This document shows positions 261-7,630 of a stretch of DNA of 32,684 nucleotides, in pieces; positions within the stretch are counted from its first letter, which is position 1, and the number at the start of each line of letters is the position of its first letter. The notes under the pieces are model-generated. The model saw only the letters and a list, made by a program, of their open reading frames with translations. It did no database searches and was not told the origin of the DNA. This stretch comes from an uncultured Fretibacterium sp. Its GTDB lineage: Bacteria; Synergistota; Synergistia; Synergistales; Aminobacteriaceae. The stretch lies in assembly GCA_947168585.1 (NCBI GenBank), contig CAMVMK010000023.1:1-32684 (forward strand). The letters are read 5' to 3'. A program made the translations under genes and the position numbers.

Positions 261-276
261 TTGAATTTATTTTTTG

Positions 277-285
277 TGATAAAAT
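277..285 (+). promoter_or_regulatory. Extended -10 promoter of structured RNA A
   Basis: TGATAAAAT matches an extended -10 (TGnTATAAT type). It sits in a block, TTTTTGTGATAAAATAGG, that is repeated before RNA B at 586-602. It predicts a start near 291-293, exactly where the RNA's 5' pairing strand begins. No good -35 is visible, which is acceptable for an extended -10 promoter. Confidence 0.55.
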
Positions 286-290
286 AGGAA

Positions 291-552
291 CAACGAGAGA
301 GGGGTTGTACCCTATTTGAAAATAATATTACTTCCGGCTTAGCCGAACAATCTATCCCAAAGCTGTAAAGCTATAAGGGCGAAATTCATAAGCCAAGCGA
401 GGACAGTGAAGAATTTAATGATCTGGCGGATCATCTTCCCCACTGTCCCTTTTCGGTTTTTACGATGTCGTTTAGACAAAAGTTTTCACCTACTTGCTAC
501 AGGAGGAATCCCCGCGCAGGTTTCCTGTCATCACCTACCGGCCTCTCGTGAG
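291..552 (+). ncRNA. Structured RNA A (unassigned class), first of a tandem pair
   Basis: About 260 nt with no convincing coding frame. Predicted helices: P1 pairs ACGAGAG (293-299) with CTCTCGT (543-549), closing the molecule. Then come hairpins CGGC/GCCG (335-338/342-345), CCC..AGCT/AGCT..GGG (356-379), GGACAGTG/CACTGTCC (401-408/441-448, long arm) and ACAGGA/TCCTGT (499-504/523-528). Each has a counterpart at the same relative place in RNA B with different bases that still pair, which is strong evidence for selection on structure. The segments TTTTCACC and CTCGTGAGAAT are shared in sequence. No terminator follows P1; the conserved tail may be a processing signal. I looked for and did not find hallmarks of RNase P, tmRNA, SRP or 6S RNA. 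Confidence 0.72.
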
Positions 553-585
553 AATGATTATAACATGATGATTTTGGAAAGAAAT

Positions 586-599
586 TTTTGTGATAAAAT
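586..599 (+). promoter_or_regulatory. Extended -10 promoter of structured RNA B
   Basis: TTTTTGTGATAAAAT is identical to the promoter block before RNA A, with TAAAAT at 594-599. It lies about 35 bp after the end of RNA A, so each copy carries its own promoter rather than being one long transcript only. Confidence 0.55.
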
Positions 600-604
600 A
601 GGGA

Positions 605-866
605 CAACGTTGAGGGGTGTTGTTACCCTATTAGTTAAAAAGATTAAAACTCTCGCACTAATGCGCTAACTTTTCCCAGAGCTCTATGAGCATGAGAAGG
701 AAGCTAACGAACCAGTAAAGAGCAACGGCGAAGTTCTTCAGGCCACGAAGAAAACCCCGCCGTTTTTTTCTGGACTTGCGTTTAACTGCCAAGATTTTTC
801 ACCAGATTTCTACACGGAGGTCTTCCCCGTTTATGAGCCGTGTCCTCATAACGAGCCCCTCGTGAG
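605..866 (+). ncRNA. Structured RNA B (unassigned class), second of a tandem pair
   Basis: Same length and helix order as RNA A. P1 pairs GAGGGG (612-617) with CCCCTC (856-861). Hairpins are CGCA/TGCG (654-657/662-665), TTCC..GCTC/GAGC..GGAA (673-702), CCAG/CTGG enclosing AACGGCG/CGCCGTT (712-715/770-773 and 724-730/758-764), and ACACGG/CCGTGT (812-817/838-843). Nearly every stem differs in sequence from RNA A yet pairs, i.e. multiple compensatory changes. The 3' end abuts the stop codon of the convergent GT4 gene at 872. The internal arms have diverged much more than the ends, so the two RNAs may have different targets or partners but a common termini-recognising protein; that is inference. 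Confidence 0.72.
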
Positions 867-871
867 AATAA

Positions 872-1864
872 TTATATCAAAGTCTTATAAAATTCCTCCG
901 TCCGCCTTGCTGTTTCGCTGAACGTTGTTAATTTATCAACTGATAACGGACTCGCTTCGCCTCCGCTCAAAACTTTTAAGATTGCCGAACGCCATGCAGC
1001 AATGTTATTTACCGGAACAAGTTTCCCCGTTGCAAGAGGTTTCAAGGGTTCAATGTCCGATGCTAAGACAGGCAGGCCGACAGCTAAGGCTTCATTGACA
1101 GTCAAAGGCAGGCCCTCCTGACGCGACGGAAATAATAAACAAGCTGCTTCGCTCATAAATTTTTCTGCGTCATCACGGAAACCCCAAAACGTAACGCGGT
1201 CATCTATTCCAAGTTCTTCAGTGAGATTTTCGAGATCTTTGCGCTGTGAGCCGTCGCCTAAAACGTCAAGAGTCCATTCGTGATTTTTCAAAAGTCCGAG
1301 AGCGTTTAATGCCGTGTCAAGACCCTTGCGCCGTGCAAGATAGCCGACAAAAAGAAATTTTTTATTTTCAGGAAATTTTTTGCCCTGCCATTTATATAAA
1401 GGCTCGCGGACTCCGTTGGGAATTGTTACAGTGTTCTCGGGCAGATAGCCTTCGAGGGCTTCTTTAACGGCTTCGGAAACGCATATAACTCCGTCAGCGT
1501 GCTTCAAAGGTTTTATTCCTAAATTTAACGAGTAAGGAGCGTGGGCAGTCATCAGCCATTTAATTTTAATTTTTTTCGAGAGAAGCCAAGCTATCCACGC
1601 CGGAACTCTCGAATGAGCGTGAATTAAATCCCAGCCGCCGATTTTCGCTAATTTCCTGACGCAGCATAAGCCCGTTATTAAATTTTTTCGCTGAACGGGC
1701 AAGTGTAAAATTCTCACGCTGTCGGGCAAAAATTTTTCGAGTTTTCCTCCCGCCGTTGCGAGCGTGATTTTGTGTCCGTGATTAACTTGTTCGCGGCATA
1801 ACTGAACGACATAACGCTCTACGCCGCCTTCTTCAAATTCCGGAACGATGTGAAGAATTTTCAT
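872..1864 (-). CDS. Glycosyltransferase family 4
   Basis: A 330-residue GT-B fold retaining glycosyltransferase. The N-terminal Rossmann half starts with ILHIVPEFEEGGVERYV, where the GG-x-E loop at residues 12-18 is typical of GT4. The C-terminal half has the nucleotide-sugar site with the E-x7-E motif, E250 and E258, in SRQEGLPLTVNEAL, and the usual VLASD strand after it. It lacks a membrane segment and should act on a lipid-linked glycan at the inner face of the cytoplasmic membrane. It is divergent from the GT2 gene, sharing an 88-bp promoter region, and convergent with structured RNA B. The sugar and acceptor cannot be told from sequence. Confidence 0.9.
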   Translation of the reverse strand: MKILHIVPEFEEGGVERYVVQLCREQVNHGHKITLATAGGKLEKFLPDSVRILHLPVQRKNLITGLCCVRKLAKIGGWDLIHAHSRVPAWIAWLLSKKIKIKWLMTAHAPYSLNLGIKPLKHADGVICVSEAVKEALEGYLPENTVTIPNGVREPLYKWQGKKFPENKKFLFVGYLARRKGLDTALNALGLLKNHEWTLDVLGDGSQRKDLENLTEELGIDDRVTFWGFRDDAEKFMSEAACLLFPSRQEGLPLTVNEALAVGLPVLASDIEPLKPLATGKLVPVNNIAAWRSAILKVLSGGEASPLSVDKLTTFSETARRTEEFYKTLI

Positions 1865-1952: not shown

Positions 1953-2981
1953 ATGCAGGAGAAACTTGTCAGTGTTATCGTACCGGCTTACAACGGAGAA
2001 AAATTTATAGCTCAAACGTTAGAGTCAATAATTAATCAGGATTATAAAAATCTTGAAATTATTTTAGTTGATGATGTCTCGACAGATAATACCGTAGAAG
2101 TTTCAAGAAAAATTTTAGAGAACAGCGGCAGACAATTTCAGATTATTAAACGAACTGTAAACGGTCATCAATCAGCAGCACGCAATACGGGACTTGACGC
2201 GGCGAACGGCGATTATGTAATTTTCTTTGACCACGATGATTTAGCTGAAAAAAATTTTGTTTCAAGTTTATATAAAGAAATTGAAGATAAAAATGCTGAT
2301 TTAGTTTTCTGTAGATATACCCATTATATAAAAAGTGAAGACAGACATAATAGAAATCTGTCGTGGCAGCCTAAAAATCCGTTACCATCGCCAATAGATT
2401 ATCTTAAAGCATATGCACGGCAAAAAATATCATTTCAAACTGTATGGAATTTTATTTTTCGTAAAAGTTTTCTTGACAGGAATAAATTAAGGTTTCCTGA
2501 AGATTCATATATTGCTGAGGATATAGAATTTATTTTGAAAGCTATTATTTTAAGTTCGCGTATTTTATTTGTAAAAGATGAACTTTATCATCATGTCATA
2601 CATCCGGCTCAGCAGACACAGGCTGATGTTAAAAAAAGAACTAACTATAAAAATTATAACCAGGAAGTTCTTTGTATGTGGCGGGCAGGACGTTGTATTA
2701 TGAGACATACAAATGACAGGGAATTAAAAAATTATGTTTTATACCGCTTCATCGCTGACAAAATTATAAAACGCTTTACGACGGCCGCTCGTGCTGGAGA
2801 TATTGAATATTACGAAAGACTTGTAACAACTATCAAGCATAAAAAAATCCGTAAAGTTATATCAATTACTGGAAAATTTATTTTTCGAGAACCGGAATTA
2901 TTTTTTAAGTCTTTAATGATTATTTATGCTCCGAATCTTTATTACAAATTGAGGAAAAAAAGCCATGAAATCAAATATTAA
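1953..2981 (+). CDS. Glycosyltransferase family 2, copy 1
   Basis: 342 residues, GT-A fold. Residues 6-96 form the nucleotide-sugar domain: VSVIVPAYNGEKFI, LVDDVSTDNT (acidic pair near 40-41) and the DxD-like metal site FFDHDD (93-96). An ED pair in the segment IAEDIEFI is a candidate catalytic base. The C-terminal 200 residues are basic and probably bind the acceptor or membrane surface. Its stop overlaps the start of the next gene by 17 bp. The first about 115 codons are almost identical to those of the next gene, while the acceptor half is diverged, so the pair probably adds the same donor sugar to different acceptors. SD AAAGGAA lies just before the ATG. Confidence 0.92.
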   Translation: MQEKLVSVIVPAYNGEKFIAQTLESIINQDYKNLEIILVDDVSTDNTVEVSRKILENSGRQFQIIKRTVNGHQSAARNTGLDAANGDYVIFFDHDDLAEKNFVSSLYKEIEDKNADLVFCRYTHYIKSEDRHNRNLSWQPKNPLPSPIDYLKAYARQKISFQTVWNFIFRKSFLDRNKLRFPEDSYIAEDIEFILKAIILSSRILFVKDELYHHVIHPAQQTQADVKKRTNYKNYNQEVLCMWRAGRCIMRHTNDRELKNYVLYRFIADKIIKRFTTAARAGDIEYYERLVTTIKHKKIRKVISITGKFIFREPELFFKSLMIIYAPNLYYKLRKKSHEIKY

Positions 2982-3993
2982 ATCTCTTGTCACTGTCATT
3001 GTACCGGCTTACAACGGCGAAAAATTTATAGCTCAGACTTTAGAGTCAATAATTAATCAGGATTATAAAAATCTTGAAATTATTTTAGTTGATGACGTTT
3101 CGACCGATAACACCGTTGAAATTTCGAGAAAAATTTTAGAGAACAGCGGCAGAAAGTTTCAATTAATAAAACGAACTGTCAACGGACATCAATCAGCAGC
3201 ACGCAATACGGGACTTGACGCGGCGAACGGCGATTATATAATTTTCTTTGATCATGATGATTTAGCCGAGAAAAATTTTGTATCGAGTTTATATAAAGAA
3301 ATTGAAGATAAAAATGCTGATTTAGTTTTCTGCGGTTTCAGAGAGTATTCAAAAACAGATAAAAAATATAAAGAATTTATTTCAGAAAAAATTTTTTCGC
3401 GTCCTGAAGATTATCTTAAAGAATGGGCAACAGAAAAATTAGAATTGTCTAGTGTTTGGAATTTTATCTTCAAAAAAGATTTCCTTGTCAAAAATCATTT
3501 AAGATTTCCTGAAGATTGCTACATATTTGAAGACGTAGAATTTATCTTAAAAGCTATAGCTGTGAGTTCAAGCGTTTCATATGTGAACAGCGTGTTATAT
3601 ACTCACGTTTATAATCCTACACAACAAACAACAGCAGATGTTAAGAACCGTGAAAATTACAAAAACTTTTCGCAAAAATTTTTTACATTACGGCGGGCTG
3701 GACGTTGTATACTAAAACATACTGATAATAAAGTTATAAGAAATTATATTTTGTCGTATCTATTTCCAGAAAAATTTTTGAAGTGGTGTACACTCTCCGC
3801 GTGCGCCGGTGATTATGATTTTTATAGGAATAAAATAAAACACTTCAGGCATAAAAAAGTGCGGGAAATTATGCTCTCGACTTTCAAATTTATTTTCCGC
3901 GAGCCGGAATTGTTTTTCAAGTCTTTAATGCTTCTTTATGCTCCTAATTTGTATTATAAAATCCGAAGCAGAAAATCTAAAATTAAGGAGTAA
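2965..3993 (+). CDS. Glycosyltransferase family 2, copy 2
   Basis: 342 residues, tandem paralog of the preceding gene. Over the N-terminal 110 or so residues I count only about five conservative differences (S/T, V/I, Q/K, I/L, V/I), whereas residues about 120-300 are strongly diverged. Similarity returns at the C-terminus (KFIFREPELFFKSLM). The DxD-like FFDHDD and the ED pair (FEDVEFI) are kept. Translation starts inside the upstream gene, with a GAGG site about 10 bp before the ATG, so coupling is expected. The stop is 3 bp before the next start. Confidence 0.92.
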   Translation: MKSNIKSLVTVIVPAYNGEKFIAQTLESIINQDYKNLEIILVDDVSTDNTVEISRKILENSGRKFQLIKRTVNGHQSAARNTGLDAANGDYIIFFDHDDLAEKNFVSSLYKEIEDKNADLVFCGFREYSKTDKKYKEFISEKIFSRPEDYLKEWATEKLELSSVWNFIFKKDFLVKNHLRFPEDCYIFEDVEFILKAIAVSSSVSYVNSVLYTHVYNPTQQTTADVKNRENYKNFSQKFFTLRRAGRCILKHTDNKVIRNYILSYLFPEKFLKWCTLSACAGDYDFYRNKIKHFRHKKVREIMLSTFKFIFREPELFFKSLMLLYAPNLYYKIRSRKSKIKE

Positions 3994-3996
3994 AAC

Positions 3997-4833
3997 ATGA
4001 ATTTCAGAAAAACATTTCGTGAAAGCAAAATTTATACCGTTTTGCGAAAATTCACGCGGAGCATTGAAAAATCTATAAAATATATCGTTAATATCAACAG
4101 TTTCAAAGACGGTCAGAATGCTGTCCGCAAATACAAAAATTTTTATGAAGGCAGACGCTGCTTTATTATAGGCAACGGTCCGAGCCTTACCGTCAGGGAT
4201 CTTGATAAAATTAAAAACGCCGGAGAAATCTCGATAGCTTCAAACAGTATTTACAAATTATATGACAAAACAGAATGGAGGCCGACAATTTATACAATTT
4301 CTGACGGCTGGGAAATTAAAAACGCCCTAAAAGAAATTTCTGAATTGAAACCTGAATTAAAAATCACTGCTATGAGTGCATTAGGGCGTGTTTATAATGT
4401 AGATAATGCAATTTTATTGAAACTTATCGACAAAGATGAAAAAGAAGAAAAAGTTCTCTTTTCTGATGATATTTCTAAATGTGTTCATGACGGCGGAACT
4501 ATAACTTATGTAAGTATTCAATGCGCTGTTTATCTCGGTTTCAAAGAGATTATTCTGCTCGGCGTGGATCATTCATTTGCAAAAGAAAGGACGAAAGACG
4601 GCCTAAAAATTAATTCGGGAGTTACTAATCATTTCCAAAATTATTTAACTGACAGAGCTAAAGAAATTGGTATTATAGATGAAGAATATGTTGTATTTCC
4701 TGTAGATTTTGCAACAATGGCTTTTGAGAAAGCAAAAGAATATGCCGACTCTCACGGAATTAAAATCCTAAACGCAACGAGGGGCGGAAAACTTGAAGTC
4801 TTTGAACGTGTCGATTTCGATGCGTTATTTTAA
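3997..4833 (+). CDS. DUF115 / MptE-like Rossmann-fold protein
   Basis: 278 residues. The N-terminus is basic (1-50). Then comes RRCFIIGNGPSL (residues 53-64), the hallmark loop of the DUF115/6-hydroxymethylpterin diphosphokinase MptE-like family, which also resembles the CMP-binding loop of GT42 sialyltransferases. Further on GGTITYVSIQCAVYLGFKEI and LLGVDHSF are typical of the DUF115 family, and the C-terminal NATRGGKLEVFERVDF is also family-like. Members are common in surface-glycan and flagellin-glycan loci (for example Maf/PseD relatives), so a role in transferring or handling an activated sugar is plausible. A pterin role is unlikely here given the glycan context. No membrane segment. 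Confidence 0.75.
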   Translation: MNFRKTFRESKIYTVLRKFTRSIEKSIKYIVNINSFKDGQNAVRKYKNFYEGRRCFIIGNGPSLTVRDLDKIKNAGEISIASNSIYKLYDKTEWRPTIYTISDGWEIKNALKEISELKPELKITAMSALGRVYNVDNAILLKLIDKDEKEEKVLFSDDISKCVHDGGTITYVSIQCAVYLGFKEIILLGVDHSFAKERTKDGLKINSGVTNHFQNYLTDRAKEIGIIDEEYVVFPVDFATMAFEKAKEYADSHGIKILNATRGGKLEVFERVDFDALF

Positions 4834-4845
4834 GGATATACAAAA

Positions 4846-5772
4846 ATGAAAATTTCGAGATTTATTGAACTTTATAAAAATTTCGGCGGCGATGTTGCAT
4901 TTGCGGCTCTCGGTGCGTCAAGATTTTGGAAAATGAATTACGTTAAACACCGTAAAGTTTTGAATTATCTTCAAAAAAATTACTCTGATTTTATACAAAA
5001 TTACAAGCCTCGTCCGTGCGATTTTAGTAATAAAAATCAAAATACAATCTGGACACTTTGGTGGCAGGGCGGTAACATTCCGGACGTTGTAAAAATCTCT
5101 CACTCAAGCATAAATAAGTTCAGAGGCTCTCACGATTTTAAGATTTTAACGCGAAATGATTTCCGCGATTACGTAAATTTGCCGGATTATATTTTGGAAA
5201 AATTTAACGCCGGGAAAATTACAATTACTCATTTATCCGACATAATCAGATTTTATTTGTTATTTAATTACGGCGGTTTATGGCTTGATTCGACTGTAGT
5301 AGTATCAAGAGAAATTCCCGAAGATATTTTCACTGCTGATTATTACACAGTACGGCGCGATTTAACGCCCCGCAATAGAAACGTTGCGCAAGACCGTTGG
5401 ACAAATTTTTTACACGCTTCTAAACCTGGTAATTTTTTATGCGGTTTTGTTCTTGATTTCTTTCTTGAATATTGGCCTGAACAGGAATTTTTAATTGATT
5501 ATTTTTTGATTGATTACGCTATACAAATTGCTTACGAAAATTTTTCCGAGTGTAAAAAAATTTTGGATTCAGTTCCGATTGTAAATCATGATTTATATAA
5601 ACTCGAAAATTCGCTAAATCTTGAGTACAGTCCTGAACTTCTTGACGAGATAAAAAATTCTGCGCTTTTTTCAAAACTTTCGTGGCGTAAACCCGGAAAA
5701 TTAAAAACTTCCGCAGGCAAGGAAACAATTTACGCTCATCTCTTAGAGGAGACTGTCCAAAATGGAAATTAA
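4846..5772 (+). CDS. Capsular polysaccharide synthesis-type glycosyltransferase, copy 1
   Basis: 308 residues of the PF05704-like (Caps_synth, GT32-related) family. Diagnostic segments are IWTLWWQGG (68-76), DVVKISHSSINKF (a sugar-nucleotide helix), THLSDIIRFYLLFNYGGLW (129-146) and the acidic LDST (D148), corresponding to the DxD region of GT32 enzymes. It is the most divergent of three tandem paralogs: its loop has GGNIPD where the others have GEENAPE. The stop overlaps the next start by 11 bp. Probable cytosolic glycosyltransferase of a surface polymer; donor unknown. Confidence 0.85.
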   Translation: MKISRFIELYKNFGGDVAFAALGASRFWKMNYVKHRKVLNYLQKNYSDFIQNYKPRPCDFSNKNQNTIWTLWWQGGNIPDVVKISHSSINKFRGSHDFKILTRNDFRDYVNLPDYILEKFNAGKITITHLSDIIRFYLLFNYGGLWLDSTVVVSREIPEDIFTADYYTVRRDLTPRNRNVAQDRWTNFLHASKPGNFLCGFVLDFFLEYWPEQEFLIDYFLIDYAIQIAYENFSECKKILDSVPIVNHDLYKLENSLNLEYSPELLDEIKNSALFSKLSWRKPGKLKTSAGKETIYAHLLEETVQNGN

Positions 5773-6679
5773 AAAAGGAATAAAATTATATAAAAATTTC
5801 GGCTTCAAAGTTACATTTGCAAGTTTCTGCTCGTCGGCTTTCCGTTTCCCTATGGCCGTAACACGCTGGAAAGACAGAGTTTTACTTGATAATCTTGAAA
5901 AAAAATATAGCAGTGTAATACAAAAATATAAAACTTTTAATGAAAAAAAATCCGATGAAAAATCAAATATAATTTGGTCAATTTGGTGGCAGGGCGAAGA
6001 AAACGCTCCCGAAGTTGTTAAAAGATGTTTTGCGAGCGTCCGCAGGCATTGCGGCGATAAAGAATTCAAAGTAATTACAAAAAATAATTTCTGTGATTAT
6101 GTCAAGCTTCCGGATCATATACTGAAAAAACTTGATTCCGGAATAATTACATTAACTCATTTATCAGACATTTTGAGATTTTATTTGCTTTCACGCTACG
6201 GCGGAATGTGGATAGACGCAACAATATTAGTAGTAAACAATATCCCCGAAGAAATTTTTGAGCGTGATTACTACGTCATCAGGCACGAAGAAAATCCTTA
6301 CAGCTACGGAGTTAACCGCGATAGATGGATAACTTATCTGCAAGCTGCAAAGAAAAATAATCTGCTATGTTCATTCGGTTATGATTTTTTTGTTGAATAT
6401 TGGAAAGAAAAAAATTGTTTAATTGATTATATGCTTATTGATTATGTAGTAGAGATTGCTTATAAAAATTTCCCTAAAGTTACAAAAATTTTAGATACTG
6501 TGCCTCTGAATAATCCTGAAATTGAAGGACTTAGGCCGCTGCTAAATTCGCCGTTTGACGAAAAAAAATTTGCAGATTTAACACAAAATACAAATTTCTT
6601 TAAGCTCACTTGGAAACATAAATTTCAAAAAAAAGTTGCAAACAGAGAGACTTTTTACGGATATATAATGAAAATCTAA
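5762..6679 (+). CDS. Capsular polysaccharide synthesis-type glycosyltransferase, copy 2
   Basis: 305 residues of the same family as its neighbours. It contains IIWSIWWQGEENAPEVVKRC, LTHLSDILRFYLLSRYGG and the acidic MWIDATI. Start lies inside the upstream gene, with GAGGAG about 10 bp before the ATG. Two blocks are nearly identical at DNA level to copy 3: the WWQG region (about 5968-6055) and the 3' block coding for FDEKKFADLTQNTNFF (about 6556-6625). The middle is more diverged, as expected of patchwork gene conversion between tandem paralogs. Confidence 0.85.
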   Translation: MEIKKGIKLYKNFGFKVTFASFCSSAFRFPMAVTRWKDRVLLDNLEKKYSSVIQKYKTFNEKKSDEKSNIIWSIWWQGEENAPEVVKRCFASVRRHCGDKEFKVITKNNFCDYVKLPDHILKKLDSGIITLTHLSDILRFYLLSRYGGMWIDATILVVNNIPEEIFERDYYVIRHEENPYSYGVNRDRWITYLQAAKKNNLLCSFGYDFFVEYWKEKNCLIDYMLIDYVVEIAYKNFPKVTKILDTVPLNNPEIEGLRPLLNSPFDEKKFADLTQNTNFFKLTWKHKFQKKVANRETFYGYIMKI

Positions 6680-6703
6680 TTTTTTACGAAAGGCGGCATA
6701 AAA

Positions 6704-7630
6704 ATGAAAGTCGAAAAAGTAATGCAATTATATAGAGAATTTGGCTTCAAAGTTGCGTTCGCAAGTTTCTGCTCATCGGCATTTACTCATCCTATGGCAA
6801 TAACACGTTGGAGAGACAAAGTTTTAATTAACTATTTGCGAAAAAATTGCAGTGATGTCCTCCAAAAATACAAAAATTTGCCTGAAAATAATACCAATGA
6901 GCCTTCAAATATAATTTGGTCAATTTGGTGGCAAGGTGAAGAAAATGCTCCGGAAGTTGTTAAAAGATGTTTTGCGAGTGTACGTAAGCATTGTATCGGT
7001 AAAGATTTTAAGATTATTACCAAAAATAATTTCCGCGATTATATTCAGCTCCCTGAGTATATAATAAAAAAAGTTGATCAAGGCATGATAACACTAACGC
7101 ATTTATCGGATATATTAAGGATGTATTTACTATATAATTACGGCGGTTTATGGCTTGATGCTACTATCTTTGTAACTGAAAAAATTCCAGATGAAATTTT
7201 TTTAATGCCTTATTTTACTATCAAACGCGAGGCTATTCCGAATGATTTTAACGTTGGGCAAAGACGTTGGACAACATTTTTGCAGGCAGCGCATAAAAGG
7301 CTTAATTTCTGCGGTTTTGTTTATGAAATTATGCTTGAATACTGGAAAAAACACGAAACCGTTTTTAATTATGTCCTGTTTGATTACATTATCGCGCTTG
7401 CTTATGAAGAACTTCCCGAATTTCGTTCGATGTTAGATGAACTGCCTGTGAATAATCCTGATGTAGACAGCATACAGGCACTGTTAAATATGCAGTTTGA
7501 CGAAAAAAAATTTGCAGATTTGACACAAAATACAAATTTCTTTAAGCTCACGTGGAAAGATCAATTTCAAAAAAACATTGCTGGCAGTGAGACTTTTTAC
7601 GGCAAAATAATGGACGAAAACTTTTTATAA
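6704..7630 (+). CDS. Capsular polysaccharide synthesis-type glycosyltransferase, copy 3
   Basis: 308 residues, last of the three paralogs, with IIWSIWWQGEENAPEVVKRC, LTHLSDILRMYLLYNYGG and LWLDATI. A 24-bp gap with AAAGGCGG before the ATG separates it from copy 2. It closes the operon and is followed by a hairpin at 7639-7677. No flippase, polymerase or exporter is present in the window, so the rest of the glycan machinery must lie elsewhere. Confidence 0.85.
   Translation: MKVEKVMQLYREFGFKVAFASFCSSAFTHPMAITRWRDKVLINYLRKNCSDVLQKYKNLPENNTNEPSNIIWSIWWQGEENAPEVVKRCFASVRKHCIGKDFKIITKNNFRDYIQLPEYIIKKVDQGMITLTHLSDILRMYLLYNYGGLWLDATIFVTEKIPDEIFLMPYFTIKREAIPNDFNVGQRRWTTFLQAAHKRLNFCGFVYEIMLEYWKKHETVFNYVLFDYIIALAYEELPEFRSMLDELPVNNPDVDSIQALLNMQFDEKKFADLTQNTNFFKLTWKDQFQKNIAGSETFYGKIMDENFL

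Follow-up and report, generated by a model that had tools for sequence, protein, structure and literature searches.

Comparison of two tandem units in a 32,684-nt stretch of DNA from an uncultured Fretibacterium sp. (the window; contig C23 of a 2.35-Mb draft genome) with their relatives is best read as revealing a new, lineage-specific family of type I toxin-antitoxin-like loci that occur in tandem arrays. With a probability of about 0.8, each unit would be one such locus, a reading in which we infer transcription, transcript ends, toxicity, neutralisation and the order of events. The base pairings of the units are mostly those of an mRNA that is read from the minus strand and encodes a small membrane protein; they lie in its 5′ leader and in a contact between both of its ends.

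Minus-strand reading frames in two tandem units

The units extend from about 275 to 565 and from 589 to 879 (promoter to promoter) and lie directly 3′ of a glycosyltransferase gene (872–1864, minus strand), which has the same orientation as the new ORFs. A run of glycosyltransferase/capsule-synthesis-like genes (Glycos_transf_2, MptE-like and three Caps_synth) is located on the plus strand at 1953–7630. Both units, as a preliminary description of this DNA had noted, contain a common promoter block (TTTTTGTGATAAAATAGGRACAACG). The folding energy of single units was unremarkable compared with shuffled sequence (z −1.84 for copy 1 and −1.92 for copy 2); with so slight an advantage over shuffled sequence, the argument depends on comparison. 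Neither copy had been thought to have coding capacity, but each contains a conserved minus-strand ORF with a Shine-Dalgarno sequence:

339–479, minus strand: putative toxin ORF of copy 1, 46 aa, TTG start at 479, stop TAA at 341–339; conserved frame, dN/dS
658–792, minus strand: putative toxin ORF of copy 2, 44 aa, TTG start at 792, stop TAG at 660–658; conserved frame, dN/dS
487–491, minus strand: Shine-Dalgarno sequence of copy 1, AGGTG
800–804, minus strand: Shine-Dalgarno sequence of copy 2, TGGTG

The encoded peptides read (M)SKRHRKNRKGTVGKMIRQIIKFFTVLAWLMNFALIALQLWDRLFG in copy 1 and (M)AVKRKSRKKRRGFLRGLKNFAVALYWFVSFLLMLIELWEKLAH in copy 2. Among 35 distinct copies of the plus-strand promoter block gathered from the returned loci L001–L039, 30 exhibited a minus-strand ORF of 44–51 aa with a Shine-Dalgarno sequence 4–8 nt before ATG, TTG or GTG, a count that excludes a spurious frame in L019 and takes L010 at an alternative ATG start (46 aa); one further copy, in L026, contains the ORF with a variant Shine-Dalgarno sequence. 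Truncated or rearranged copies that keep the antisense promoter block and lack the full ORF were observed in L013, L017, L019 and L036.

Fetched diverged loci brought the family set to 83, from which five weak matches were dropped to leave 78 members, some with wrongly chosen start codons (e.g., the 57-aa calls in L014 and L060). Codon comparisons indicate that the ORF frame is under purifying selection across these members: dN/dS was below 1 in 84 of 84 usable pairs (median 0.27; 85 pairs of 68–97% identity, not independent of one another), and substitutions favoured the third codon position (870, 606 and 1404 at positions 1, 2 and 3, respectively). The N-terminus is basic, with a net charge of at least +4 in the first 18 residues of the matched region, and 73 of the 78 members contain a hydrophobic 17-residue stretch with a mean hydropathy of 1.6 or more. 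An AlphaFold2 model consists of a single helix (residues 8–45, mean pLDDT 80.7). With fewer than 60 aa and a predicted transmembrane helix, the peptide family has the size and hydrophobicity of type I toxins.

Database searches linked neither the RNA nor the peptide to a described family. Rfam at gathering and relaxed thresholds returned nothing or chance matches, and the earlier statement that the units match no known RNA class held, as searches of the window and of 12 loci containing relatives each gave 0 Rfam matches that reached the gathering score; no tRNA or tmRNA was found. For the 70 of 78 members in the profile A4, no known type I toxin family was among the Pfam and NCBIfam matches listed, the best of which (E 0.0017 and 0.025, respectively) each concerned 1–5 members and unrelated families. 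PHROGs returned 0 families for three of four peptides and one chance match for the fourth (E 0.094), PADLOC returned nothing for both window peptides, a PDB profile search gave one chance match (E 0.51), and the copy 1 peptide matched no phage or plasmid record. In viral contigs, 18 stretches fitted the peptide patterns and none was confirmed; six further contigs found by the antisense-promoter pattern are chance matches, since profile search found no family member in them (best E 0.29). Among the titles listed for literature on Synergistetes, Synergistaceae or Synergistota combined with toxin-antitoxin or antisense RNA, none described such loci, and an entry in T1TAdb is possible.

Pairings in the leader and between the messenger ends

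The leader of the putative toxin mRNA is ~80 nt long, and its covarying pseudoknot ends a few nt before the Shine-Dalgarno sequence. The positions of this fold, supported by 58 leaders, and of the helix that joins the mRNA ends are as follows:

499–528, minus strand: leader pseudoknot of copy 1, ACAGGA (523–528) with TCCTGT (499–504), around hairpin P2 (534–538 with 516–520)
812–855, minus strand: leader fold of copy 2, pseudoknot 838–843 with 812–817, P2 845–849 with 833–837, enclosing helix 851–855 with 826–830
543–549, minus strand: 5′ arm of the copy 1 end-to-end helix, ACGAGAG, partner CTCTCGT at 293–299
293–299, minus strand: 3′ arm of the copy 1 end-to-end helix, in the 3′ hairpin loop
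856–861, minus strand: 5′ arm of the copy 2 end-to-end helix, GAGGGG, partner CCCCTC at 612–617
612–617, minus strand: 3′ arm of the copy 2 end-to-end helix, in the 3′ hairpin loop

Two of the pairings in the preliminary description, ACAGGA/TCCTGT versus ACACGG/CCGTGT and the closing helix P1, are present as the pseudoknot and the end-to-end helix, respectively, and both covary in relatives and in held-out copies. A third, the hairpin CGGC/GCCG versus CGCA/TGCG, exists and straddles the stop codon, with weak support in the family: own arms paired over 3.87 bp versus 3.63 bp when swapped, and 77 of 5000 permutations were as good (77 of 78 members).

The leader alignment omits 20 of the 78 members (missing start or promoter, out-of-range leader, or identity). 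In the remaining 58, the pseudoknot helix was 95.9% paired with two-sided changes at 6/6 pairs, hairpin P2 was 82.0% paired, and the enclosing helix 68.1%, the last probably undercounted because MAFFT misplaces this helix in one subfamily. The fold as a whole exhibited 102 two-sided cells versus 34.6 in shuffles that ignore relatedness (0/500), and sliding the partner positions destroyed the covariation signal. RNAalifold on the leaders recovered four pseudoknot pairs only.

Analysis of the end-to-end pairing in the 60 usable members (18 of the 78 fell outside owing to a missing start, promoter, or out-of-range leader) revealed 6.33 bp between own ends versus 5.31 bp between ends swapped between copies (0/10000 permutations). 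At least 6 bp were formed in 52 of the 60, and fewer than 6 contiguous Watson-Crick pairs in the other eight. The 52 helices comprise 19 different strings, several of them nested, which group by eye into about 8 motifs; these include ACGAGAG/CTCTCGT (copy 1), GAGGGG/CCCCTC (copy 2 and 23 others), GAGGGAG/CTCCCTC, AGGAAG/CTTCCT, CGGTGGG/CCCACCG and GCGAAGGGAG/CTCCCTTCGC. A control pairing of leader with ORF gave no copy-specific signal (2771/5000), and the anti-Shine-Dalgarno analysis detected no copy-specific pairing with the ORF start (788/5000) or the 3′ region (4793/5000).

Both structures were also evaluated in a held-out set of 20 further regions with copies found by the 70-member profile A4, in which 20 of 26 ORFs satisfied the leader criteria; these loci are new but of the same family-level lineage as the main set. 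The end-to-end window was set beforehand, with a default 3′ window for held-out copies without the antisense motif, and the pseudoknot windows were fixed during this test and afterwards used on the main set. End-to-end pairing reached 6.15 bp versus 5.13 bp when swapped (1/10000), with at least 6 bp in 15 of 20 copies and fewer than 6 contiguous Watson-Crick pairs in five; the pseudoknot gave 5.55 versus 4.81 bp (36/10000). Held-out copies contained new compensated end-to-end pairs, such as GAAGAGG/CCTCTTC and GAGGAGG/CCTCCTC. The covarying end-to-end helix and leader pseudoknot represent conserved, putatively regulatory structure in the putative toxin mRNA.

Thermodynamic folding placed the end-to-end helix above a probability of 0.5 in only 35 of 58 cases (MFE folding). 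The idea that this helix hides the Shine-Dalgarno sequence was unsupported by folding: median predicted openness of the site was 0.28 with and 0.28 without the 3′ end, and was lower in the full mRNA in 27 of 58.

Signals on both strands, distribution and alternative readings

Each ORF is flanked by promoter-like and terminator-like sequences, and each unit contains a second, opposing set:

557–565, minus strand: toxin promoter of copy 1, extended −10 TGTTATAAT, candidate mRNA start near 549
871–879, minus strand: toxin promoter of copy 2, extended −10 TGATATAAT, candidate mRNA start near 863
275–285, plus strand: antisense promoter of copy 1, extended −10 TGTGATAAAAT
589–599, plus strand: antisense promoter of copy 2, extended −10 TGTGATAAAAT
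292–455, plus strand: predicted antisense RNA of copy 1, about 164 nt with putative ends, terminator-like arms 401–408/441–448, then a T-rich tail
606–769, plus strand: predicted antisense RNA of copy 2, about 164 nt with putative ends, terminator-like arms 724–730/758–764, then a T run
286–313, minus strand: terminator-like hairpin at the 3′ end of the copy 1 toxin mRNA, then ATTTTAT, putative termination
600–629, minus strand: terminator-like hairpin at the 3′ end of the copy 2 toxin mRNA, then ATTTTAT, putative termination

The copy 2 toxin promoter overlaps the stop codon of the upstream glycosyltransferase gene. On the toxin strand, 69 of 78 members contain the −10 element at 5/6 or better, and the extended form TGnTATAAT was present in 47 of 58; on the antisense strand, TGTGATAAAAT was likewise found at 9/11 or better in 69 of 78, and the extended motif in 68 of 69, though this motif was part of the search. 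The arms of the 3′ hairpin covary (0/5000 permutations). A terminator-like hairpin for the antisense RNA was located inside 57 of 78 ORFs (20 synonymous resamplings averaged 16 and never exceeded 23) and was undetectable by the same rule in the other 21; applied to the sense strand, this rule identified hairpins in 25 of 78 ORFs. A generic promoter and terminator scan of positions 200–950, which demands a −35 box and loops of 3–8, gave nothing. The predicted antisense RNA is complementary to the 3′ UTR and to roughly three quarters of the ORF, without reaching the Shine-Dalgarno sequence.

A DNA search of 100 genomes found relatives of copy 1 in 14 and of copy 2 in 24 (own genome counted), all in one genus. 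The profile A1 (30 sequences) extended this to 35 of 43 genomes in the genus and 42 of 185 in the phylum, and A4, whose alignment leaves out 8 of the 78 members, at E 1e-4 to at least 38 of 43 in the genus and at least 48 of 185 in the phylum, all within the family of the window. A4 matches numbered at least 10 in the most-populated genome and at least 7 in that of the window. Eight named loci are from Synergistaceae or Synergistales MAGs of goat reticulum, omasum and rumen and of red deer; most family members come from a single Synergistaceae genus that has named relatives in the rumen. The 78-member set contains 24 head-to-tail neighbour pairs on 18 loci, spaced 309–485 nt apart with an ORF identity of 0.50–0.75. 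Coding, orientation, the conserved signals on both strands, the pairings and the tandem amplification are established by these sequence comparisons. At one locus, L076 (G034:C147), at least five diverged copies are arrayed about 330 nt apart, and several distinct end-to-end motifs occur within this array.

The same sequence evidence would fit a small membrane protein that has a regulatory or housekeeping role rather than being a toxin and whose structured leader is under antisense control, since membrane peptides of about 46 aa need not be toxic. We consider this unlikely: tandem multi-copy arrays, patchy copy number, convergent antisense and multi-layer translational locks make up the usual type I picture, as far as it is described in the accessible parts of PMC8309996, PMC6733600 and PMC11228461.

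Less probable still is the first proposal, that the plus strand gives rise to a structured non-coding RNA of ~260 nt belonging to a new class. The helices on which it was built exist and are maintained by covariation, Rfam 15 lacks them, a promoter block lies on the plus strand, and covariation alone cannot tell the strands apart; however, the minus-strand ORF is under purifying selection and has its own Shine-Dalgarno sequence and promoter, and the supposed RNA would be shortened by the terminator-like hairpin that lies about 165 nt away from the plus-strand promoter. The structured RNA itself was upheld and its assignment to a plus-strand non-coding RNA was not; instead of a 260-nt species, the promoter block most probably makes the shorter (~165 nt) antisense RNA.

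A small non-autonomous mobile element, with the outer helix formed by its ends, would account for multiple copies in a genome, their tandem order and frequent position at contig ends, and for the palindrome CCCCATAGCTAAAGCTAGGGG at 9–29 with similar palindromes adjoining copies L036 (disrupted) and L060. This reading is highly improbable, because the outer helix varies by compensation between copies rather than forming a single sequence for an enzyme to recognise, and tandem copies are 50–75% alike with the protein still under purifying selection.

Two other repeats were observed in the window. The palindrome at 9–29 occurs exactly at 4 places in the genome and with 1–2 mismatches at 2 more, and is possibly the end of a mobile element. 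An interspersed element at about 95–185 comprises the extended −10 promoter TGTTATAAT, a hairpin (110–143) and the tail TTTTTATTATTACATTTATTATTAC, and matches 17 further places in the same genome; in 15 fetched copies, the hairpin differs and the tail is kept, with TATAAT just upstream in at least 11. Such copies may encode a family of very short RNAs, or the element may be a promoter-terminator cassette that is repeated.

Proposed mechanism and comparison with known systems

In the type I toxin-antitoxin-like reading, the minus-strand extended −10 promoter would produce an mRNA of ~270 nt encoding a peptide of 44–46 aa with a basic N-terminus and one membrane-spanning helix. The leader would fold into the pseudoknot, its last arm a few nt before the Shine-Dalgarno sequence, and the 5′ end would pair with the loop of the mRNA's own 3′ terminator-like hairpin to give a closed messenger. 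The opposing extended −10 promoter would drive an antisense RNA of ~165 nt, ending at the terminator-like hairpin within the peptide codons. This antisense RNA carries the GAGGGG-type motif of the mRNA 5′ end and therefore can compete for the 3′ loop. It may neutralise the messenger by forming a duplex with it, with decay by RNase III, refolding or both, and the peptide, once made, would insert in the membrane and slow or stop growth. In the model that we prefer, translation is set by the pseudoknot next to the Shine-Dalgarno sequence and limited by the closed form, with the antisense RNA invading from the 3′ loop.

According to the accessible part of PMC12390103 (2025), the cyanobacterial case was preceded by type I systems from Proteobacteria, Firmicutes and Tenericutes only; such systems are recognised mostly by likeness to known ones and reported from few phyla. 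We think it fairly likely that the present family is an undescribed type I superfamily, the first in Synergistota, characterised by an RBS-adjacent pseudoknot, a lock between the 5′ end and the terminator loop, an antitoxin terminator within toxin codons, and tandem diverged arrays. It was reached from RNA covariation alone, with a complete anatomy. A single DNA stretch is predicted to serve as both peptide code and antisense terminator, natural compensatory variants make each pairing testable by swap mutants, and the arrays offer natural material for studying how antisense-regulated loci in tandem remain independent of one another.

In TxpA/RatA and BsrG/SR4 of Bacillus, a convergent antisense RNA overlaps the 3′ end of the toxin mRNA. 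The antisense RNA predicted here is similarly placed, whereas its overlap spans most of the ORF and profiles reveal no family relation. The overlap of IsoA, the antisense RNA of the AapA/IsoA systems of Helicobacter, reaches the ribosome-binding site, unlike that of the antisense RNA predicted here, which covers the 3′ part. AapA/IsoA is otherwise similar in the features described in the accessible text of PMC6733600, namely several chromosomal copies, a small toxic peptide (here predicted), a cis antisense RNA (likewise predicted here), a 5′–3′ long-distance interaction in the toxin mRNA and covarying mRNA structures. Its end-to-end contact sequesters the Shine-Dalgarno sequence via an anti-Shine-Dalgarno sequence, according to the same text (PMC6733600), whereas in the present family the extreme 5′ end pairs with the 3′ hairpin loop and the anti-Shine-Dalgarno pairing was not found. 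The covarying 5′ UTR pseudoknot, which in the present family may help or hinder translation, has a counterpart in the type I toxin mRNA of timP/TimR of enterobacteria, where a covarying pseudoknot controls translation and is required for it; that system is proteobacterial, and an end-to-end contact is not mentioned in the accessible part of its description (PMC11228461). As a type I-like locus outside the usual phyla, the family resembles msoT1/msoA1 of Microcystis, which differs in being cyanobacterial and in having been tested in E. coli, as stated in the accessible part of PMC12390103.
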